Source: Acidithiobacillus ferrooxidans ATCC 23270
Lineage (GTDB): Bacteria; Pseudomonadota; Gammaproteobacteria; Acidithiobacillales; Acidithiobacillaceae
NCBI RefSeq assembly: GCF_000021485.1
Contig: NC_011761.1
Span: 588,001 to 652,000 of the forward strand
Length of the DNA stretch: 64,000 bases
Direction: 5' to 3'
Shown: one piece after another, positions 37,364 through 49,854 of the stretch
Layout of the letters: each line of letters opens with the position of its first letter
Position numbering within the stretch: the stretch's first letter is position 1
The notes under the pieces: model-generated
Database searches by the model: none
What the model saw: only the letters and a program-made list of their open reading frames with translations
What the model was told of the DNA's origin: nothing
Position numbers and translations under genes: made by a program

Positions 37364-38473
37364 ATGGATGTTCGCGCAGCAGTCGCCTTTGAGGCGGGTA
37401 AACCACTGGTCATCGAAACCGTGCAACTGGACGGTCCCAAGGAGGGGGAGGTACTGGTGGAGCTCAAGGCCACCGGCATCTGCCACACCGACCATTTTAC
37501 CCTTTCCGGTGCAGATCCCGAGGGCCTGTTCCCGTGTATTCTCGGCCATGAAGGCGCCGGGATCGTCGTTGACGTTGGCCCGGGTGTGAAGAGTGTCAAA
37601 AAGGGCGACCACGTCATTCCCTTGTATACTCCGGAATGTCGCGAATGCGAGTATTGTCTTTCGCGCAAGACCAATCTCTGTCAGAAGATTCGGACGACCC
37701 AGGGGAAGGGACTGATGCCCGACGGGACGACGCGCTTTTCGTTCAAAGGCAAGCCGTTGTTCCATTACATGGGTTGTTCGACCTTCGCCAATTATACCGT
37801 GATGCCCGAAATCGCCTTGGCCAAAATTCGGGAGGACGCCCCCTTTGACACCACCTGCTATATCGGCTGCGGGGTAACCACGGGCATTGGTGCCGTGGTG
37901 TTTACGGCGAAGGTGGAACCGGGTGCCAATGTGGTGGTTTTTGGACTGGGCGGCATCGGCCTGAATGTGATTCAGGGCGCCAAACTGGTGGGCGCCAACA
38001 TGATCATCGGGGTGGACATCAACCCGGCCCGGGAGGCCATAGCCCGGAAGTTCGGCATGACGCATTTCGTCAATCCGAAGGAGGTGGAAGGCGACCTCGT
38101 ATCCCATCTGGTCGAACTGACTCATGGTGGTGCGGATTACAGCTTCGAGTGCATCGGTAATGTAAAAGTCATGCGTCAGGCCCTGGAGTGCTGTCATAAA
38201 GGCTGGGGTGTTTCCTGCATCATCGGTGTTGCCGGCGCCGGCCAAGAGATATCGACCCGCCCCTTCCAGTTGGTTACCGGACGGCGGTGGATCGGCAGTG
38301 CGTTCGGCGGCGCCCGCGGGCGTACCGACGTTCCGAAAATAGTCGACTGGTACATGGAGAAGAAGATCAATATCGACGACCTGATCACTCACCGCCTCAA
38401 GCTGGAAGATATCAACGAAGGGTTCCATCTTCTGGAAACGGGGCAATCCATTCGCAGTGTGGTGGTGTATTGA
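37364..38473 (+). CDS. adhC: S-(hydroxymethyl)glutathione dehydrogenase / class III alcohol dehydrogenase
   Basis: Zinc alcohol dehydrogenase of 369 residues that oxidises S-hydroxymethylglutathione to S-formylglutathione with NAD+. Catalytic zinc ligands are C40 (GICHTDH) and H62/E63 (GHEGAG). Structural zinc cysteines are C92, C95, C98 and C106. The coenzyme site is FGLGGIGLNVIQGA. Its stop overlaps the fghA start (TGATG), so the two are coupled. Confidence 0.96.
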   Translation: MDVRAAVAFEAGKPLVIETVQLDGPKEGEVLVELKATGICHTDHFTLSGADPEGLFPCILGHEGAGIVVDVGPGVKSVKKGDHVIPLYTPECRECEYCLSRKTNLCQKIRTTQGKGLMPDGTTRFSFKGKPLFHYMGCSTFANYTVMPEIALAKIREDAPFDTTCYIGCGVTTGIGAVVFTAKVEPGANVVVFGLGGIGLNVIQGAKLVGANMIIGVDINPAREAIARKFGMTHFVNPKEVEGDLVSHLVELTHGGADYSFECIGNVKVMRQALECCHKGWGVSCIIGVAGAGQEISTRPFQLVTGRRWIGSAFGGARGRTDVPKIVDWYMEKKINIDDLITHRLKLEDINEGFHLLETGQSIRSVVVY

Positions 38474-39327
38474 TGGCTCCGCTAGAAACACGGGAAGAGC
38501 ATCGCTGCTTTGGTGGACGCATGGGTTATTATGCCCATGCGTCCAGTGCCACGGGGGTGTCCATGAATTTCGCGGTGTACCAGCCGCCCCAGGCATTGGG
38601 TGGTGCCCTGGTCCCAGCCCTGTATTACCTGGCGGGGTTAACCTGCACTGAAGAAACGTTCATGATTAAGGCTGGCGCCCAGCGTCTGGCCGCCGAACTG
38701 GGGCTGATGCTGGTCGCCTGCGATACCAGTCCCCGCGGACTGAACATCCCCGGTGATTCTGATAGCTGGGACTTCGGCGTAGGGGCAGGGTTTTATCTCA
38801 ACGCAAGAATGCTGCCCTGGACCCGGAATTACCGGATGGGCAGTTATGTTGATCATGAGTTGCCTACCTTCATCGAAGAACATTTCCCGGCCTCTCCGGA
38901 ACGCCGGGGTATTTTTGGGCACTCCATGGGCGGTCACGGGGCACTGGTGCTCGCTTTGCGCAATCCGCAACACTGGCACTCGGTATCGGCATTTTCGCCC
39001 GTCTGTAGCCCCAGTACGGTGCCCTGGGGAGAAAAAGCCTTTGGGAATTATCTGGGGCCTGACCGTGAGCAATGGCGGGAATGGGATGCCAGCGTGCTGA
39101 TGCGCCAGCGTCCCCACCCCAGCGAGATACTGGTGGATCAGGGGGAAGCGGATCCTTTTCTTGCGGCGCAATTGATACCGGAGGCTCTGGAGGCCGCCGC
39201 GGAGGCTTCCGGACAACAACTCCGTCTGCGACGGCATCCGGGCTATGATCATTCCTACTGGTTCGTCCAGACCTTTGTGGAGGATCACCTCCGTCACCAC
39301 GCCCTGCAACTGGGCTGCGCCGCCTGA
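38473..39327 (+). CDS. fghA: S-formylglutathione hydrolase
   Basis: Alpha/beta hydrolase (esterase D family) of 284 residues that releases formate and glutathione. The nucleophile elbow is GHSMGGHGA with S151; LYYLAGLTCTEETFMIKAGAQ is the oxyanion-loop region, and a catalytic His is in GYDHSYWFVQTF. It completes the formaldehyde-to-formate pathway; the formate could go to the FdhF-type enzyme encoded nearby. Confidence 0.95.
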   Translation: MAPLETREEHRCFGGRMGYYAHASSATGVSMNFAVYQPPQALGGALVPALYYLAGLTCTEETFMIKAGAQRLAAELGLMLVACDTSPRGLNIPGDSDSWDFGVGAGFYLNARMLPWTRNYRMGSYVDHELPTFIEEHFPASPERRGIFGHSMGGHGALVLALRNPQHWHSVSAFSPVCSPSTVPWGEKAFGNYLGPDREQWREWDASVLMRQRPHPSEILVDQGEADPFLAAQLIPEALEAAAEASGQQLRLRRHPGYDHSYWFVQTFVEDHLRHHALQLGCAA

Positions 39328-41999: not shown

Positions 42000-42962
42000 A
42001 TGGCGAACGTGCTTTGGCTCCAGGGAGGAGCCTGTTCTGGAAATACCATGTCTTTTCTCAATGCGGAGGAGCCGAGCGCCTGCGATCTGGTGACGGATTT
42101 TGGTATCAACGTGCTCTGGCAGCCCTCTCTCGGGATGGACATGGGGGACAATGTTCAGAAGTTGCTTCGGGATTGTGTGTCTGGGGCAATTCCCCTGGAT
42201 ATATTCGTTTTCGAGGGTACCGTGGTCAACGCCCCCAATGGTACGGGTACCTGGAATCGCTTTGCCGGTCGTCCGATGAAAGACTGGGTGAAGGAGTTAT
42301 CAGGTGCAGCCCAGTTCGTGGTGGCGTTGGGAGATTGCGCGACATGGGGAGGCATCCCGGCGACCGCCCCGAACCCCAGTGATTCCAAGGGACTTCAGTT
42401 CCTCAAAAAGCAGCATGGCGGTTTCCTGGGGGCGGGCTTCAAGAGCAAGGCCGGGCTTCCTGTCATCAATATCCCCGGTTGTCCCGCCCATCCGGACTGG
42501 GTCACCCAAGTACTGGTGGCGGTGGCGACAGGCCGCGCCGGAGAACTGGAACTGGATGATCTGCAGCGTCCAAAGACGTTTTTCAAGAGCTTCACCCAGA
42601 CGGGATGTACCCGCAACATGCACTTTGCCTACAAGGTTTCCGCCACGGAATTCGGGCAGCGAAAGGGCTGTCTCTTTTATGACCTGGGCTGCCGTGGCCC
42701 GATGACCCATTCGCCCTGTAACCGCATCCTGTGGAACCGGCAGTCGTCCAAAACCCGGGCGGGGATGCCCTGTCTGGGTTGTACCGAACCGGAGTTCCCC
42801 TTCTTCGATCTGGCGCCGGGCAGTGTGTTCAAAACCCAGACCATGATGGGGGTGCCGAAAGACCTGCCAGAGGGTGTGGACAAATCCGCTTATATCAAAC
42901 TTACGGCAGCCGCCAAGAGTGCTTCGCCGGCCTGGGCCGAAAAAGACATCTTCGTGGTCTGA
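42000..42962 (+). CDS. hupS: uptake [NiFe]-hydrogenase small subunit, group 2a (cyanobacterial type)
   Basis: Electron-transfer subunit of 320 residues, starting MANVLWLQGGACSGNTMSFL and without a Tat signal, so the enzyme is cytoplasmic. Proximal-cluster ligands are C12, C113 and C161, with N15 where standard enzymes have a fourth Cys. The distal cluster has C203, C224 and C231, with Q200 in place of the usual His. Medial ligands are C240, C258 and C261. It resembles cyanobacterial HupS throughout. An AGAGGAGG site 8 bases before the ATG at 42000 decides the start; in-frame upstream starts (41973) are less likely. Confidence 0.96.
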   Translation: MANVLWLQGGACSGNTMSFLNAEEPSACDLVTDFGINVLWQPSLGMDMGDNVQKLLRDCVSGAIPLDIFVFEGTVVNAPNGTGTWNRFAGRPMKDWVKELSGAAQFVVALGDCATWGGIPATAPNPSDSKGLQFLKKQHGGFLGAGFKSKAGLPVINIPGCPAHPDWVTQVLVAVATGRAGELELDDLQRPKTFFKSFTQTGCTRNMHFAYKVSATEFGQRKGCLFYDLGCRGPMTHSPCNRILWNRQSSKTRAGMPCLGCTEPEFPFFDLAPGSVFKTQTMMGVPKDLPEGVDKSAYIKLTAAAKSASPAWAEKDIFVV

Positions 42963-43012: not shown

Positions 43013-44611
43013 ATGGCAACAGCCGTACAGACACTGGATATCAGCCCGGTTGGTCGGGTTGAGGGGGATCTGGATGTACGCGTGGACATTCGGGACGGCG
43101 TGGTGGTCGAAGCCTACACGCAAGCTGAATTGTTCCGTGGCTTCGAGGTCATTTTAAGAGACAAGGATCCGCAGGCGGGGCTGGTGGTAACGCCGCGTGC
43201 CTGTGGTATTTGCGGCGCTTCGCACCTGACCTGTGCCGCCTGGGCGCTGGACACGGCTTGGCAGACGGAAGTCCCGCGCAACGCCATCCTGGCCAGAAAC
43301 ATCGGTCAGCTTGTGGAAAGCCTGCAAAGCATGCCGCGTCATCATTATGGATTGTTCATGATCGATATGGTGAATGAGAACTATCGGCACGGTAAGTTCT
43401 ACGATGAGGCGGTCAGGCGTTACGCCCCATTTACGGGCACCAATTACGAAATCGGCGTGACGATTTCCGGCAAGCCTGTAGAAATCTATGCCCTCTTCGG
43501 CGGGCAGTGGCCGCATTCCAGCTACATGGTTCCCGGCGGCGTCATGTGCGCGCCCACCCTGTCCGACGTTACACGTTCCTGGTCCATATTGGAGTATTTC
43601 CGTACCAACTGGCTGGAACCGGTATGGCTGGGGTGTTCGATGGAGCGTTATGAGCAGATCAAGTCCTATGATGATTTCATGGCGTGGCTGAACGAGCGTC
43701 CGGAACACGCCGATTCCGACCTGGGGATGTATTATCGGATCAGCGAGGATGTCGGGCTGATGAAGTTTGGCGGGGGGTTGGGCAAGTACGTCTCGTGGGG
43801 CTATATTCCCCATGAGGATCGTTACCAGCATCCGACCATCGACACGCGGCAGCAGTCCGTCGTCATGAAGGGGGGCGTCTACGATGCGAAGGCCGACAAG
43901 TTTCATCCCATGAACCAGTCCTTCACCCGTGAATCGACGACCCACGGCTGGTACGATGAGGGAAGCAATCCCGTCCATCCCTTCAACCGGACCACGAGGC
44001 CGATGCAGTCCAACGATCGGGACTTCAGTGGGGCCTACACCTGGTGTACCGAAGTCGCCCACGAGCAGTTGGGGCGCATGGAAGCCGGTCCCCTATCCCG
44101 GCAACTGATCGCCGGCGGCGACCACGGCGAATCCTGGCAACATTCCGACCCCTTCATTCTGGACGTCTACAAGAAAATGGGGCCCAGTCTGTGGTTGCGG
44201 CATTTCGCGCGGATGCACGAGGTGGTGAAGGTTTATCGCCAGATCGAACATTGTCTGCGTGAGTTCCGCCTGAATGAGCCATTCTATATCAAGCCCCGCG
44301 AGCGGGATGGACAGGGGTGGGGTGCCACGGAGGCCATGCGCGGCGCCCTGGCGCACTGGATCGAGGTGAAGGGTGGCAAGATCAGCAATTACCAGATCAT
44401 CGCTCCCACCACCTGGAATGTGGGCCCCCATGATGCGCAGGGCGGCCGTGGTCCCATCGAAGAGGCTTTGGTTGGCACGCCTATCACGAATCCGGCGGAT
44501 CCGGTGGAGGTCGGGCATGTGGCCCGTTCGTTCGATTCCTGTCTGGTCTGCACGGTGCATGCCCATGATGCCAAGTCCGGAAAGGAGCTCGCACGTTTCC
44601 GCACTGCCTGA
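43013..44611 (+). CDS. hupL: uptake [NiFe]-hydrogenase large subunit, group 2a
   Basis: Catalytic subunit of 532 residues. The Ni-Fe ligands are the N-terminal C64/C67 (RACGICGASH) and the C-terminal C510/C513 (SFDSCLVCTVH). Cleavage by the maturation protease is expected after H516, removing 16 residues. The enzyme oxidises H2, probably at low concentration, as known for group 2a enzymes. It lies 50 bases after hupS behind a GAGGAG site. Confidence 0.96.
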   Translation: MATAVQTLDISPVGRVEGDLDVRVDIRDGVVVEAYTQAELFRGFEVILRDKDPQAGLVVTPRACGICGASHLTCAAWALDTAWQTEVPRNAILARNIGQLVESLQSMPRHHYGLFMIDMVNENYRHGKFYDEAVRRYAPFTGTNYEIGVTISGKPVEIYALFGGQWPHSSYMVPGGVMCAPTLSDVTRSWSILEYFRTNWLEPVWLGCSMERYEQIKSYDDFMAWLNERPEHADSDLGMYYRISEDVGLMKFGGGLGKYVSWGYIPHEDRYQHPTIDTRQQSVVMKGGVYDAKADKFHPMNQSFTRESTTHGWYDEGSNPVHPFNRTTRPMQSNDRDFSGAYTWCTEVAHEQLGRMEAGPLSRQLIAGGDHGESWQHSDPFILDVYKKMGPSLWLRHFARMHEVVKVYRQIEHCLREFRLNEPFYIKPRERDGQGWGATEAMRGALAHWIEVKGGKISNYQIIAPTTWNVGPHDAQGGRGPIEEALVGTPITNPADPVEVGHVARSFDSCLVCTVHAHDAKSGKELARFRTA

Positions 44612-44628: not shown

Positions 44629-44659
44629 GGGTCGGATACCGGACTGCGGTGTCCGGCCC
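44629..44659 (+). terminator. 13-bp hairpin between hupL and the accessory genes
   Basis: A stem of 13 pairs (including two G-T) with a 5-base loop lies 17 bases after the hupL stop. There is no T-run on the plus strand; on the minus strand it is followed by CCCTTTTT, a proper terminator, although no minus-strand gene is near. On the plus strand it may stabilise the hupSL message or reduce readthrough. Confidence 0.5.
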
Positions 44660-44700: not shown

Positions 44701-45021
44701 ATGAATCACATGGCACAGGAAGAGGACGCATTACGGGCACAAATCGCCAGCATGCTCAAAGCGGGACTGAAGACAGAGATCACCCCATTTCCCGAAGACA
44801 GTAATGCTTTCGCGCAACTATTGCAGCGTATCCGCGAAGAGGCGGGGTCGGATCTGGAGAAAAAACTGGTGATTGGCGGTTTTACGGATTATCCCATGGG
44901 AGAAGATCAGCAGCGTTGCCAGGAGTGCATGTATTATCTCAACCACCGCCGCTGGTGTGACCTGCCGGAACTGGACGTTCCGGTAGAGCCGGACTGGTGG
45001 TGCCGCCTGTGGCGCATCTAG
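44701..45021 (+). CDS. small four-cysteine protein A, HiPIP-like pattern
   Basis: Protein of 106 residues, no signal peptide. An alpha-helical N-terminal part (about 1-65) is followed by a C-terminal module with C73, C76, C86 and C101 in the spacing C-x2-C-x9-C-x14-C, and ends DWWCRLWRI. The arrangement, with aromatic residues beside the cysteines and W-C-x-x-W at the end, recalls high-potential iron-sulfur proteins, although those are exported and have longer second gaps. A metal or Fe-S site is inferred. It is the first of two tandem paralogues directly behind hupL; an electron carrier for HupSL is the main hypothesis. Confidence 0.75.
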   Translation: MNHMAQEEDALRAQIASMLKAGLKTEITPFPEDSNAFAQLLQRIREEAGSDLEKKLVIGGFTDYPMGEDQQRCQECMYYLNHRRWCDLPELDVPVEPDWWCRLWRI

Positions 45022-45039
45022 GCAAGGGGGTATCTGGAT

Positions 45040-45372
45040 ATGCAAACCATGGAAGAATTCCCGGAGGACGCGCTGATACGTGCGCAACTGGAAAAATTGC
45101 TGCTCGCTGGCCTGCGTACCGAAGCGGAACCGCGTGCGTACGATCTGGAGATGCAACAATCGGTGCTGACGCGTTTGCAGAATGTACCGGCGGAAGAGAT
45201 CGCCAAACGTGTCGGGATAGCCGGATTCACGCTGCATCCTTATGCAGCCGAGGGTATTGAGCAAGCGTGCGAAACGTGTATGTATTTCCTTTCGCACCGG
45301 CAGTTCTGCGCGCTTCCTGAATTGATGTTACCGGTCAGGCCCGACTGGTCCTGTCGGTTGTGGCGAATTTAG
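45040..45372 (+). CDS. small four-cysteine protein B, HiPIP-like pattern
   Basis: Protein of 110 residues, paralogue of the gene 18 bases upstream. C77, C80, C90 and C105 have the same C-x2-C-x9-C-x14-C spacing. The shared blocks are CMYxLxHRxxC, LPELxxPVxPDW and the identical last residues CRLWRI. The N-terminal halves differ more, but both contain a helical ALRAQI/LIRAQL segment followed by AGL(K/R)TE. An old tandem duplication is likely. No signal peptide. Function unknown; a redox or assembly role with HupSL is inferred from position. Confidence 0.75.
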   Translation: MQTMEEFPEDALIRAQLEKLLLAGLRTEAEPRAYDLEMQQSVLTRLQNVPAEEIAKRVGIAGFTLHPYAAEGIEQACETCMYFLSHRQFCALPELMLPVRPDWSCRLWRI

Positions 45373-45374
45373 TC

Positions 45375-45848
45375 ATGCGCGTGGTGGTGGGATGCGGCAA
45401 CTTGTACCGACGCGATGACGGGGTCGGTATCACGGTTATTCAGCGGTTGCGGGGCGCGCTGGATCCCCTGTCCGCAGATATCGCCCTCCATGATGCGGGC
45501 ACATCCGGCATGGACGTGATTTTCAAGGCCCGCGATTGTCGGCAGCTCATCATTGTGGATGCATGCCGGACGGGTAGCGATCCGGGATCGGTGTTCAGGT
45601 TGCCTGGCAGTGAGCTGGAATTGCCCCATACCCCTACCCTCACATTGCACGACTTTCGCTGGGAACATGCGCTTTATGCCGGAAAACGCCTGTTTGGAGA
45701 GCGATTCCCCGAGCGGGTGACCGTCTTTCTGGTGGAAGGCACCGATTTCGGTTTCGGCGACGGGCTCACTCCACCGGTGGAGGGGGCGATCCCCGCAGTA
45801 TTGGCCCAGGTGAAAGCGGCGTTGGCCGAGGCGGAAGCGACCCCATGA
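45375..45848 (+). CDS. hupD: hydrogenase maturation endopeptidase
   Basis: Protease of 157 residues that removes the HupL C-terminal peptide after Ni insertion. It has the M52-family start VVGCGNLYRRDDGVGITVI, the nickel-sensing Asp/Glu positions in DAGTSGMDVIF, and LTLHDFRWEHAL. The ATG at 45375 is 2 bases after the previous stop; an in-frame TTG at 45360 would overlap it. Its stop overlaps the next start (ATGA). Confidence 0.93.
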   Translation: MRVVVGCGNLYRRDDGVGITVIQRLRGALDPLSADIALHDAGTSGMDVIFKARDCRQLIIVDACRTGSDPGSVFRLPGSELELPHTPTLTLHDFRWEHALYAGKRLFGERFPERVTVFLVEGTDFGFGDGLTPPVEGAIPAVLAQVKAALAEAEATP

Positions 45849-46174
45849 CTGACAGGGTCGTAAATCTCCTGTTGAAAGACGGGTACCTATTTATTCCCGC
45901 GCCCGCCTATCGCGGTACCATGGCCGGTCTCCTGGCGGTTGCCGTGCTCTGGCGATCGCCATGTTTGCATTTGATCCCATTGCATCCTGGTACCGTCGGC
46001 GGCTTTTTGCTGAAGCAGCGCAACCTTGCCGGTGACCGCGTGGTCGATCTCCGCCTCTTCCTGCGGGATCATGAACTGGCGGAGAACTTCGAGGGGGTTC
46101 TTTCCTTTCTGTGGATGCCGGAACAGGGAGCGTGGCAGACGAGACAGCTATGCCCGGAATCGCTTGATAAGTAA
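45845..46174 (+). CDS. uncharacterised protein of the hydrogenase operon
   Basis: Protein of 109 residues overlapping the protease gene by 4 bases. No signal peptide, no cysteine cluster (two isolated Cys) and no motif that I recognise. It has a mixed alpha/beta look with a hydrophobic stretch GTMAGLLAVAVLW near residue 24 and a C-terminal segment FEGVLSFLWMPEQGAW. Tight coupling to the protease suggests a maturation or structural role, but nothing in the sequence proves it. Confidence 0.6.
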   Translation: MTDRVVNLLLKDGYLFIPAPAYRGTMAGLLAVAVLWRSPCLHLIPLHPGTVGGFLLKQRNLAGDRVVDLRLFLRDHELAENFEGVLSFLWMPEQGAWQTRQLCPESLDK

Positions 46175-46272: not shown

Positions 46273-47253
46273 ATGTCCGGGACTTTGGCAGAAACGGAAT
46301 ACCAGGTCGCCTTGAGAACCGCCCGGGATGACACCATTCCGGCCGGCGAACGTGCGGAAATGCTCATGGAGATCGCCCTGGGTCTGCAACGGCGCCCGCG
46401 CCGACCGGAGGACCTCGAACAGGTCAACCACCTATACAAAGAAGGTTTACAGGTCTGCCCGGATGAGGACACCCTGCTACGTGCGCGGCTCCTGGCCGGA
46501 CAGGCGACCGCCTTGCTGGCGACGCCCGGCGATACCGGGGTGCTCGAAGAGGCTGTCGCTTGCCTGCGCGGTGCGTTGCCAGTGCTGCAGACCCTGGGAA
46601 ACGCCGAAGAGGCTGCCGAAGCCGAGATGAACGAGGGACTGGCCTTACAGGGGCTCGCCGTGGCGGGGAAGGCGCCGTTCCCGGATGCCGTACGGAAGTA
46701 CCACAGCGCCTTGCGGGTTTTTACCGCGGATAAATTCCCGCGTGAATACGCGATCCTCCACAACAATCTGGCCACCGCCTATCTGTCCATGACCATGGGT
46801 GATGAGACTTCCAGAATGCGTGAGGCCCTGGCCGTGCAATCCTACGAGTCCGCGTTGCGTGCCATCACCCTCGATGCACATCCGGCGGAGTACGCCATGC
46901 TGCAAAACAACCTCGGTAATGCTCTGCAGTACAGCAGCAGCGCGCATCCGGTCGAAAATAATCTGCGTGCTCTGGAAGCCTATCGGGAGGCGTTGCGGGT
47001 GCGGACTCCCAAAGAGCGGCCGGGCGAATATGCAAACACCATCAGCAATATGGCCAATGCGCTGCGGAACCTGCCCGACGACCCGGAAAACCCGGAACTG
47101 GGCAACGTCCGGAATCTGGGTGAGGCGGTCAGACTGTATGAAACCGCGGAAAAGATCTTCACGGAAACGGGAGAACTGGATAAATCAGCACTGGTCCGCG
47201 TGGCCCTGGACGAAACCCTGGCACTGGTACGCGAACAGGGATCTGTACATTAA
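46273..47253 (+). CDS. TPR-type helical repeat protein of the hydrogenase island
   Basis: Protein of 326 residues, cytoplasmic (no signal). Helical repeats are visible, such as EYAILHNNLATAYLSM near residue 160, EYAMLQNNLGNALQYS near 200 and EYANTISNMANALRN near 250, about 42-48 residues apart, each starting PxEYA. These are TPR-like protein-binding repeats. TPR proteins of this kind occur in group 2a hydrogenase clusters of other bacteria as far as I recall. A scaffold or assembly role is inferred. Confidence 0.8.
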   Translation: MSGTLAETEYQVALRTARDDTIPAGERAEMLMEIALGLQRRPRRPEDLEQVNHLYKEGLQVCPDEDTLLRARLLAGQATALLATPGDTGVLEEAVACLRGALPVLQTLGNAEEAAEAEMNEGLALQGLAVAGKAPFPDAVRKYHSALRVFTADKFPREYAILHNNLATAYLSMTMGDETSRMREALAVQSYESALRAITLDAHPAEYAMLQNNLGNALQYSSSAHPVENNLRALEAYREALRVRTPKERPGEYANTISNMANALRNLPDDPENPELGNVRNLGEAVRLYETAEKIFTETGELDKSALVRVALDETLALVREQGSVH

Positions 47254-47277: not shown

Positions 47278-47505
47278 ATGTCGGCACTGGACGCATTCGA
47301 CGGTCAGCATATACAGGCGATCGCCATTTTATGGATTTTGCTGGGTGGATTGGTCGGGGTGTTGGCGGGAGCCGTGTCGGGGGCGCTGATCTGTGGCAAA
47401 AAGCTGGGCGATAACAAGCTGGCGGCGATGATGGGGGGCATGTACGGAGCGATGCCTGTCATTCCCGGGCTGGTCCTGGGCACGATCATCCTTGTACTGA
47501 TCTGA
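47278..47505 (+). CDS. small membrane protein 1 of the hydrogenase island
   Basis: Protein of 75 residues with two hydrophobic helices, about 14-38 (IAILWILLGGLVGVLAGAVS) and 50-75, separated by a short basic-polar loop CGKKLGDNKLA. Gly-rich helix faces suggest tight packing. No family is recognised. Its place between TPR and NifU-Rieske genes makes it a candidate membrane anchor for the hydrogenase chain. Confidence 0.65.
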   Translation: MSALDAFDGQHIQAIAILWILLGGLVGVLAGAVSGALICGKKLGDNKLAAMMGGMYGAMPVIPGLVLGTIILVLI

Positions 47506-47533: not shown

Positions 47534-47758
47534 ATGTGGGACATGATATGGAACTCGGCGGGATTGTTCCTGCGCGGAAAGCTTTTCAGGGATACCCGAT
47601 TGGTCCTGATGCTGCTGACGGCCAACAGTCTCCTGGCTGCCGTGGTCGTCGTTGCCGGACATTTCGCCGGCATTCCGTATCTGGTGGATTGTCTGGTTGC
47701 CGGCGCCCTGTGTGGCGCCCTGCAGCCCTTCCTTTTCGTGAATTTGAAGTACGCATGA
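47534..47758 (+). CDS. small membrane protein 2 of the hydrogenase island
   Basis: Protein of 74 residues with two predicted membrane helices, about 22-43 (LVLMLLTANSLLAAVVVVAG) and 48-70 (YLVDCLVAGALCGALQPFLF). It follows the other small membrane protein by 28 bases behind an AGGAGG site and is 1 base before the NifU-Rieske gene. No family recognised. Confidence 0.65.
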   Translation: MWDMIWNSAGLFLRGKLFRDTRLVLMLLTANSLLAAVVVVAGHFAGIPYLVDCLVAGALCGALQPFLFVNLKYA

Positions 47759-47759
47759 C

Positions 47760-48665
47760 ATGGCTACGTCACCCGTGCCGGATGACATTGGACGCAGGGA
47801 AGCAGATACCCTGACGGAAGATATCGCCAGATTGGGCAGCCTCGAAAAAATCGTGCAGGGATGGGATGAAACGCAGCAAAGAACGGTGCTGGCACTGCGC
47901 GATGGCTGGGAGGCGATGTATAGAGAATGCCTGCGGCGTCTTATCCGTACCGTACAGAGTGCTCCGCAGGGTGCCACCGGCTTGCGGGAAGCCGCCGCGG
48001 ATCCGTACGTCTACGCGGTGTTGCGGACGCTGGGTCTGGTTCGGCCCTCCCTACAGGAACGTATCGAAGCCGCGCTGGACAGCGTGCGGCCGGGGCTGGA
48101 AGGACATGGCGGCAATGTCGAGCTGGTCGAGCTGCGTCTACCCGATACCGTGATTTTGCGCCTGCTGGGGTCTTGTCACGGTTGCCCGTCTTCCTCGCTG
48201 ACCTTGTCGGATGGGGTGGAGAAAGCGATTCGCGATGCCTGCCCGGAAATACGCCATATTGAAACGGCGGGTCGGCAGTACGCCGCCACCGCGCTGACCG
48301 GGGAAGGGTCTGAACAGCGTATCAGCCCCTTCGCCATTGGCGGGCGTCATCCCTGGCTGCCGGCCATGCGGCTGGAGGATCTGCCGCGAAATAGCCTGCT
48401 CGCCCGGGAAGTGCTTTCCGATGCCCTGCTGTTCTGGCGCGATCCGGATGGAGATGTGCACTGTTACCGCAATGCCTGCGCCCATCTGGGTATGCCCCTC
48501 GAAGAGGGGAAAGTGGATCCGGCCGGGGTTCTGACCTGTCCGCATCACGGATTCCAGTTTGCGTTGGAGAGCGGGGAATGTCTGACGATACCCGAGGTCC
48601 AGTTGGAGCCCTGGGCGGTGCGGGTGGTCGACGGCGAGATCCAGGTGAGGAAGGATCATGACTGA
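47760..48665 (+). CDS. NifU-type domain fused to a Rieske [2Fe-2S] domain
   Basis: Protein of 301 residues. An N-terminal helical part (about 1-85) is followed by a NifU C-terminal-like domain (about 95-165) with C139 and C142 in the motif GSCHGCPSSSLTL. A Rieske domain (about 190-295) has the ligands C240/H242 and C260/H263. Both domains can hold Fe-S clusters, so electron transfer from the hydrogenase or cluster delivery to HupS are both possible. Proteins with this combination are reported in group 2a hydrogenase operons; the role here is inferred. The stop overlaps the next gene. Confidence 0.85.
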   Translation: MATSPVPDDIGRREADTLTEDIARLGSLEKIVQGWDETQQRTVLALRDGWEAMYRECLRRLIRTVQSAPQGATGLREAAADPYVYAVLRTLGLVRPSLQERIEAALDSVRPGLEGHGGNVELVELRLPDTVILRLLGSCHGCPSSSLTLSDGVEKAIRDACPEIRHIETAGRQYAATALTGEGSEQRISPFAIGGRHPWLPAMRLEDLPRNSLLAREVLSDALLFWRDPDGDVHCYRNACAHLGMPLEEGKVDPAGVLTCPHHGFQFALESGECLTIPEVQLEPWAVRVVDGEIQVRKDHD

Positions 48666-49854
48666 ATATACCCATCCCCTGAGTGCCGCTATCCGGAACC
48701 GGCCAGCCGCCATCCCTTCGGAGCAGTTGCTGGTTGGGGCGGGGGCAAGGGTCATCCTGGGGGAGCAGGTACGGCCCAGGGGGGTCGTCGTACCTGTCGT
48801 TCCTTCCGCGCAGACGCTTTTCGGCCCGCGTGGTGCCAGCCTCATGGCTGACGGATCCCTTTGGGTGGCTGATACCGGCCATCATCGCTTGCTGGGGTGG
48901 CCCACGCTACCCGAAGCCGATGGCCAACCTGCCACCTGGCTCATTGGTCAGCCAGATTTTGAACGGGACGGGGGGCGCAACGCCCACGGCCCTGTCGGCG
49001 CGGCATCACTGAATGTTCCCACCGGGATCTGTCCGGTTGGCAATGGGATGGCGGTGGCGGACGTCTGGAACCATCGGGTGCTGATCTGGTATGAAGTACC
49101 TCATGAAAGCCATGTTCCGGCGGATCTGGTTCTCGGCCAAACCGATTTTGTGTCGGCGGAAATCAATCGCGGTGCGCCCCAACCATCCGCGTCCACCTTA
49201 TACTGGCCTTATGGGGTCTTTTGGGATGGTGCCCGGCTCTATGTCGCGGATTCGGGTAACCGCCGCGTCCTCTGGTGGGAGGGCATTCCCACGGAAAAAG
49301 GACAACCCGCGGACGGGGTCCTGGGCCAGGCGGATTTTCATTGCCGGGACGAGAACGGAGGTCACGAAGCCGACGCCATGAGCATGCGCTGGCCCCATGC
49401 GGTAACCCATTTCTGGGATTGGCTGGTCGTGGGGGATGCGGGGAACAACCGGGTGCTGCTCTGGCGTGGGGCGCCACAGCGCAATGGTCAGGCGGCCGAT
49501 ATGGTTCTCGGACAGCCTGATTTTGCTCAGAACGCCCACAATCGCGGTAATTATTTCCCCAATGCGGCCTGCTTCAATATGCCCTATGGGGTGACCGCCA
49601 CGGGAAACTGGCTGATCGTGGCGGATACGGCCAACAGCCGGCTGCTGGGCTGGCAGGCGGACGATCTATTGACGGGCGCTTCGGCACGCACCCTCGCCGG
49701 TCAGGATGGTTTCCAGCACAAGGGGGACAACCGCTGGGGCGTGGTGGGGCGCAATACGCTGTGCTGGCCTTATGGGATTTCTGCTGCGGGAAGGAGCGTG
49801 ATCATCGCCGACTCGGGTAACAACCGCGTGCTGCTTTGGGACAGGCGGCCATGA
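48658..49854 (+). CDS. NHL-repeat beta-propeller protein of the hydrogenase island
   Basis: Protein of 398 residues with at least five NHL-type blades, each containing a VADxxNHRVLxW-like strand (VADTGHHRLLGW, VADVWNHRVLIW, VADSGNRRVLWW, VGDAGNNRVLLW, IADSGNNRVLLW) and repeated LGQxDF segments. No signal peptide, so it should be cytoplasmic. It is a likely protein-binding scaffold. It overlaps the NifU-Rieske gene by 8 bases and hypF by 4. Confidence 0.87.
   Translation: MTEYTHPLSAAIRNRPAAIPSEQLLVGAGARVILGEQVRPRGVVVPVVPSAQTLFGPRGASLMADGSLWVADTGHHRLLGWPTLPEADGQPATWLIGQPDFERDGGRNAHGPVGAASLNVPTGICPVGNGMAVADVWNHRVLIWYEVPHESHVPADLVLGQTDFVSAEINRGAPQPSASTLYWPYGVFWDGARLYVADSGNRRVLWWEGIPTEKGQPADGVLGQADFHCRDENGGHEADAMSMRWPHAVTHFWDWLVVGDAGNNRVLLWRGAPQRNGQAADMVLGQPDFAQNAHNRGNYFPNAACFNMPYGVTATGNWLIVADTANSRLLGWQADDLLTGASARTLAGQDGFQHKGDNRWGVVGRNTLCWPYGISAAGRSVIIADSGNNRVLLWDRRP

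Follow-up and report, generated by a model that had tools for sequence, protein, structure and literature searches.

The hup locus

The window—by which we mean the whole stretch of 64,000 nucleotides that was analysed—belongs to a genome of 2.98 Mb and carries the genes of a group 2a [NiFe]-hydrogenase, which are listed with the neighbouring features in Table 1. Among PDB sequences, the best match to the small subunit HupS is the small subunit of the hydrogenase Huc (7uur/8dqv; E 3.9e-162). Behind the large-subunit gene hupL lie two short genes, here called p1 and p2, and then the gene for a hydrogenase maturation protease; the closest named relatives of p1 are from Acidithiobacillus. A gap of 18 nt separates p1 from p2 and one of 2 nt separates the p2 stop from the in-frame ATG of the protease gene—spacing that suggests that the three genes lie in one transcription unit. 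We set the protease start at this ATG; the list of open reading frames has a GTG at 45360.

Table 1. Features of the hup locus; positions are those of the window
Feature	Positions	Strand	Basis or remark
hupS, group 2a [NiFe]-hydrogenase small subunit	42000..42962	+	Pfam Oxidored_q6 and NiFe_hyd_SSU_C
hupL, large subunit	43013..44611	+	Pfam NiFeSe_Hases 8.8e-72
Hairpin in the gap between hupL and p1	44629..44659	+	13 uninterrupted pairs, 2 of them G-U
p1, 106-aa four-cysteine HiPIP-like protein	44701..45021	+	Cys 73, 76, 86, 101
HiPIP-like core of p1, residues 48-106	44842..45018	+	Predicted model
p2, 110-aa four-cysteine HiPIP-like paralogue	45040..45372	+	Cys 77, 80, 90, 105
HiPIP-like core of p2, 61 aa, modelled alone	45187..45369	+	Predicted model
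Hydrogenase maturation protease (HycI/HupD type)	45375..45848	+	TIGR00072 6e-37
109-aa protein without family	45845..46174	+	Counterpart in 74 of 80 related loci
Probable TPR protein	46273..47253	+	Sub-threshold Pfam SNAP match; in Thermus and Sulfobacillus the gene in this position carries a TPR annotation
Small putative membrane protein, asr0689-like	47278..47505	+	42 bits where the cut-off is 95; a membrane protein as judged by eye
Second small putative membrane protein	47534..47758	+	Judged by eye; counterpart in 65 of 80 loci
NifU and Rieske protein (HucE-like)	47760..48665	+	Pfam NifU 3.2e-21, Rieske 1.2e-19
NHL-repeat protein	48658..49854	+	Pfam NHL 1e-18

The 95-nt gap between hupL and p1 contains a hairpin without a T run; on folding, the gap gave a minimum free energy of -35.1 (z -2.43), and 3 of 200 shuffled sequences folded equally well. 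This hairpin is possibly an mRNA end or a processing or stability element, and it may keep the output of hupSL in excess over that of the downstream genes. Further downstream, the 109-aa protein has no Pfam or NCBIfam family at E <=1 and matches its counterparts in other loci with 25-87% identity; short unnamed genes occupy its position in four of five group 2a plasmid loci from other phyla. The tandem small putative membrane proteins might provide the hydrogenase with a contact to the membrane. The NHL gene is followed by a HypF-like gene, named from its position and from its likeness to other group 2a loci. Near the hup cluster, at 37364-39327, lie what we take from their likeness to be a glutathione-dependent formaldehyde dehydrogenase and an S-formylglutathione hydrolase.

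The p1/p2 family

The proteins p1 and p2 are 46% identical and have in common the pattern C-x2-C-x9-C-x14-C-x2-W and the terminal residues CRLWRI. An earlier reading of the sequence alone (the sequence-only reading) had described them as adjacent paralogues with this cysteine spacing and ending, which we confirm and can extend to relatives elsewhere. Family loci were collected by a scan of genome contigs that gave 202 pattern matches, 146 of them confirmed as relatives, and the best 80 of the 146 were used. Because the search patterns included a portion of the motif, one copy at each locus is biased towards it; the tandem partner of that copy is less so. The exact spacing is found in 150 of the 152 family copies at the 80 loci, the exceptions being a copy truncated where its contig ends and another whose third cysteine position is unread.

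The 80 loci comprise 48 from alphaproteobacteria, 18 from gammaproteobacteria, 6 from betaproteobacteria, 3 from Acidithiobacillia, 2 from Nitrospiria, 1 from an Acidobacteriota MAG, and 2 others; they are not independent cases, since clustering of the 79 complete p1 copies at 95% identity leaves 65 groups. Gene order is nearly fixed: hupL stands directly before p1 in all 78 loci whose upstream sequence exceeds 700 bases, p1 precedes p2 in all 70 loci that carry both paralogues, and the protease gene lies at most 1.5 kb away in 78 of the 79 loci with downstream room (the exception is L032). Across 398 genomes of the phylum, large subunits of the hupL type (72-100% identity) occur in four, that of the window included, and the p1/p2 family occurs in the same four; it is absent from the 14 other genomes whose large subunits are 36-40% identical. 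The position behind hupL that had been pointed out from the letters alone thus proves to be a strict tie to HupSL.

The alignment and tree used 105 rows: the two proteins of the window plus 103 of 132 copies, chosen as complete, without X, non-identical, and shorter than 125 aa. In the FastTree phylogeny p1 and p2 separate with a support of 99 (the labels were taken from the residue pattern at the first cysteines), and the duplication is probably older than the spread of the family. Nine loci have p1 only. One of these (L016) is cut by a contig end; for the other eight we searched the whole genomes and found no second full-length p2-type copy, which rejects the explanation that p2 had been overlooked there. 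None of the 80 loci has p2 only (p1 of L070 is partly unread). The existence of p1-only loci and the lack of p2-only ones suggest that p1 is the more indispensable paralogue.

Several variants of this arrangement were seen. Locus L057 has three tandem copies, and at L030 (10365-10592) and L046 (2304-2531) the second gene behind hupL encodes 76 aa, a nearly bare HiPIP-like core without most of the N-terminal helical part. Methylocapsa acidiphila, whose hup locus (L085) is p1-only, has a second p1-like gene elsewhere in its genome (L168), and the genome of L025 holds a stand-alone short core away from hup (L169:1495-1893, minus strand), which we leave unassigned and the upstream frame of which looks doubtful. 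In each of the 12 plasmid records, the gene that p1 matches is annotated as hypothetical; four of these matches also touch the protease gene. A phage or viral origin was considered and rejected—of 25 pattern matches in a scan of viral contigs, none was confirmed as a relative.

Nine residues are strictly invariant across the 105 rows (the four cysteines, Tyr78, Pro89, Trp99, Trp104, and Gly60), and all of them are in the cysteine core, none in the N-terminal part. The stretch from the third to the fourth cysteine contains two nearly invariant motifs, LPEL and PV.

Export signals and cellular location

To detect export signals we looked for a twin-arginine-like motif with a hydrophobic stretch no more than 40 residues behind it, and applied this rule identically to the family and to true high-potential iron-sulfur proteins (HiPIPs). 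Such a Tat-like signal is present in 18 of 19 true HiPIPs and in none of the 105 family members; the bare twin-arginine motif, without the hydrophobic stretch, occurs in 3 of the 105 in its strict form and in 15 in its loose form. The absence of an export signal, claimed at first for the two window proteins, therefore extends to the family, and section 10 of PMC7735108 locates Hup itself in the cytoplasm.

Relationship to high-potential iron-sulfur proteins

The sequence-only reading had described the cysteine module as a shortened HiPIP, and had proposed a profile comparison with HiPIP and zinc-ribbon families. In Pfam, NCBIfam, and PDB sequence searches, neither p1 nor p2 matched a zinc ribbon or any other known family above the cut-off; matches to SecB, Bromo_TP-like, BIR, and DUF6455 families were weak, and we assign the pair to none of them. 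Against Pfam HIPIP, p1 scores 13 bits where 22 are needed, and among the matches listed no family member reaches the cut-off; HIPIP is the commonest weak Pfam match, reached by 12 of the 105 members at E <=1 (best 0.057). A profile-profile comparison with the 19 true HiPIPs brings the four cysteines into register with a score of 22.5 and an hhalign probability of 20%; this score was reached by none of 200 column shuffles, and by 1 of 200 when the cysteine columns were held fixed. The evidence from sequence is borderline and falls short of the Pfam cut-off.

A six-frame search of the 398 genomes with the core profile returned the eight hup copies, then a match containing a stop, a match of 18 residues, and a true HiPIP from genome G104. 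The latter is the best non-hup match in an open frame with all four cysteines, among the matches listed, and its E value of 0.0014 per genome corresponds to about 0.6 chance matches expected over 398 genomes. It is the only HiPIP that the core profile recovered from 14 HiPIP-bearing genomes, and two family profiles (A3 and A5) found no HiPIP among PDB sequences. Kinship between the pair and HiPIPs is likely, at the limit of what sequence comparison detects; convergence could also account for the likeness. In the genome of the window (G000) no HiPIP gene exceeds the Pfam cut-off (best E 0.76); G004 and G021, of the same family, have such genes.

Structural models were built with AlphaFold2 without templates, and reached a pLDDT of 93 for p1 and 89 for the 61-aa core of p2. 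For the p2 core, HiPIPs are the top five of 12 Foldseek matches; the best is 3h31 (E 0.023, prob 0.99, TM 0.64), the fifth is weak (E 5.1), and the lower rows are unrelated and weak. With VIA-align the same core gives a Z of 7.2 and an rmsd of 2.1 over 56 residues, and all 15 rows are HiPIPs, PioC among them. Plain Foldseek with the full p1 model gave no HiPIP at E up to 10 and two unrelated weak matches; with VIA-align, 14 of the 22 top-ranked Foldseek chains have a Z of at least 2, and the 11 rows in which they are shown are all HiPIPs, at Z 4.6-5.3. VIA-align re-scores Foldseek's own candidates, so that rows filled with HiPIPs exclude no other family, and intermediate Z values often arise by chance; what carries weight is that a single small family occupies both lists. 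A structure unrelated to HiPIPs had been named as one outcome that would speak against the HiPIP reading, and the predicted models rank HiPIPs first or alone. At the level of predicted fold, the HiPIP reading is supported.

The models also bear on the supposed shortening. The cysteine domain aligns with 52 of the 62 residues of the R. tenuis HiPIP and with 51 of the 54 of PioC, and in the p1 model a helical part of nearly 50 residues precedes it; as modelled, the protein is a near-complete HiPIP core with an added N-terminal helical part, without clear shortening. The models support the HiPIP-like module and give no clear sign of truncation. The pair shares with HiPIPs (PF01355) the order of the cysteines, an aromatic residue two positions after the second of them, and a C-x2-aromatic ending, and its predicted fold is like those of R. 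marinus 3h31, R. tenuis 1isu, and PioC 6xyv. It differs from them in the N-terminal helical part, in LPEL and PV, and in its occurrence as tandem copies linked to hupL, as well as in the missing Tat-like signal and the sub-threshold Pfam score.

Hydrogenase class and access to quinone

Group 2a hydrogenases are described in PMC7784904 as having a Proteobacteria-associated radiation that includes A. ferrooxidans. In five plasmid loci from other phyla (Runella, Thermus, Sulfobacillus, Hymenobacter, and Mycobacterium intracellulare) hupL is 53-56% identical and is followed by the protease gene; a six-frame motif scan of these loci gave one match, far downstream in L152 and unlike the family. The pair looks like a mark of the Proteobacteria-associated radiation, with Nitrospira in addition.

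The best-described relative is Huc of Mycobacterium smegmatis (group 2a; 7uus, 8dqv), in which, according to PMC10017518, menaquinone is brought by a stalk of HucM, HucM forms the scaffold of the oligomer, and three [3Fe-4S] clusters are present. The window HupS is close to the Huc small subunit and shares its quinone-contact residues, with Lys212 and tyrosines 227 and 298 kept; conservation of the residues that contact menaquinone in HucS means that direct, carrier-free reduction of quinone may persist. Gene order downstream is as in the actinobacterial locus L152, where a DUF1641 protein encoded before hucS is HucM by its PDB match (E 2.9e-34). Unlike Huc, the window locus has the pair and has no HucM-family gene at the locus.

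Neither the window genome nor any of the 22 genomes searched among those of the 80 family loci has a member of the HucM family (DUF1641). Within the Acidithiobacillus family, DUF1641 occurs in three of five genomes, away from hup, and among the five plasmids without the pair it lies near hupS in three. The other two, from Runella and Hymenobacter, lack both the pair at the locus and a DUF1641 gene on the plasmid, which contradicts a strict exchange of HucM for HiPIPs unless the gene is on the chromosome. A simple ubiquinone rule was also rejected: UbiG is present in 24 of 27 family-carrying genomes and missing from two Nitrospira and one Henriciella MAG, so the rule is not absolute, and the two Nitrospira, with the pair and without UbiG, indicate that the pair is not simply tied to ubiquinone.

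Proposed roles

The HiPIP idea for this operon is partly anticipated in print, and here it is extended to a whole family. Section 10 of PMC7735108 names DN052_04130 of At. ferrooxidans CCM 4253, near hupLS, as a putative HiPIP and a candidate link to ubiquinone; that section treats the one gene, without fold, family, or distribution. Going by position near hupLS alone, DN052_04130 is probably the orthologue of p1 and DN052_04125 that of p2. In our literature search no report of a cytoplasmic HiPIP came up, and a HiPIP with a group 2a hydrogenase appeared in PMC7735108 alone; the pair goes unmentioned in the accessible portions of PMC13098282 and PMC2621215.

Taken as a whole, the explanation that we prefer is that p1 and p2 are cytoplasmic relatives of HiPIPs which relay electrons from HupSL toward the respiratory quinone with one [4Fe-4S] cluster each, and we consider the chances for and against it to be evenly balanced. 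The four cysteines of each HiPIP-type core would hold the predicted cluster, and the helical N-terminal part, which stands where HiPIPs have their export signal, probably docks. The pair would take electrons singly from the distal cluster of HupS and pass them on towards the respiratory quinone, with or without the HucE-like Rieske protein and the small membrane proteins as intermediates, and so might stand in for the HucM stalk that serves mycobacterial Huc. We infer the cluster, its potential, its partner, and the direction of electron flow. That high-potential carriers match high-potential clusters and a final acceptor such as ubiquinone is established chemistry; its application to HupSL is our reading. 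On the side of expression, PMC7735108 gives the transcripts of DN052_04125-04130 and the 04130 protein as higher in anaerobic than in aerobic growth on H2; the same paper describes purified At. ferrooxidans Hup as two subunits, which counts against the carrier reading, as do the conserved quinone site of HupS, the two Nitrospira with the pair and no UbiG, the Runella and Hymenobacter plasmids, and the eight loci where p1 has no p2 beside it.

A rather unlikely alternative is that the pair has the HiPIP fold and stays outside the electron path, as maturation or protection factors that help to place or shield the clusters of HupS, or the active site, while the enzyme is assembled in air. Its genes lie between hupL and the maturation protease, and the intact quinone site of HupS agrees with such a role. 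Hydrogenase loci also encode other iron or iron-sulfur proteins: mycobacteria require HucE (NifU-Rieske), which has a counterpart in the window, to oxidise H2, and in M. smegmatis even the dye-linked activity depends on it, its role as carrier or in assembly being left open in PMC6883350, and a rubredoxin-related protein of R. eutropha, cited there, is important for aerobic maturation—the domains of both, however, are unrelated to p1 and p2. The five group 2a loci from other phyla weigh against a maturation role, as they lack the pair at the locus despite a highly conserved HupS. So does the company that the fold keeps, the HiPIPs of known role being, to our knowledge, electron carriers.

The strict synteny and fixed order, the helical N-terminal part, and the absence of the HucM scaffold family from the pair-bearing loci of the genomes searched would fit structural subunits or docking adaptors that attach HupSL to the membrane or build its oligomer, with a mainly structural cluster. 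We regard this as improbable, given the purification of Hup as two subunits (PMC7735108) and the confinement of the invariant residues to the cysteine core, outside the N-terminal part. Least probable by our estimate, and a slight prospect only, is that p1 and p2 bind zinc and resemble HiPIPs through a chance arrangement of four cysteines: the sub-threshold HIPIP scores would allow it, and single members among the 105 match the predicted metal-binding family DUF2284 (E 4e-4) and a zinc-finger family (0.018), but HiPIPs come first or alone in the rankings for two models, and the cysteine order, the aromatic residue after the second cysteine, and the C-x2-W ending fit a HiPIP.

Implications for group 2a hydrogenases

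For the route by which electrons pass from non-mycobacterial group 2a hydrogenases to the respiratory chain, proposals so far have named HucE and, in one case, a putative HiPIP. Our analysis gives a defined pair of proteins that is placed strictly behind hupL, is predicted to have the HiPIP fold, and has an experimentally tractable role. A broader and more doubtful proposal, which we put forward tentatively, is that group 2a hydrogenases of the Proteobacteria type swapped HucM for a soluble cytoplasmic HiPIP pair, such that electrons from H2 leave HupSL on high-potential [4Fe-4S] carriers and quinone no longer has to be brought to the enzyme; if true, this would mean a cytoplasmic HiPIP pathway and a second mode of energy coupling in an enzyme class able to consume atmospheric H2. 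The carrier reading itself would point to a HiPIP-type family that works inside the cytoplasm, in alpha-, beta-, and gammaproteobacteria and in Nitrospira.
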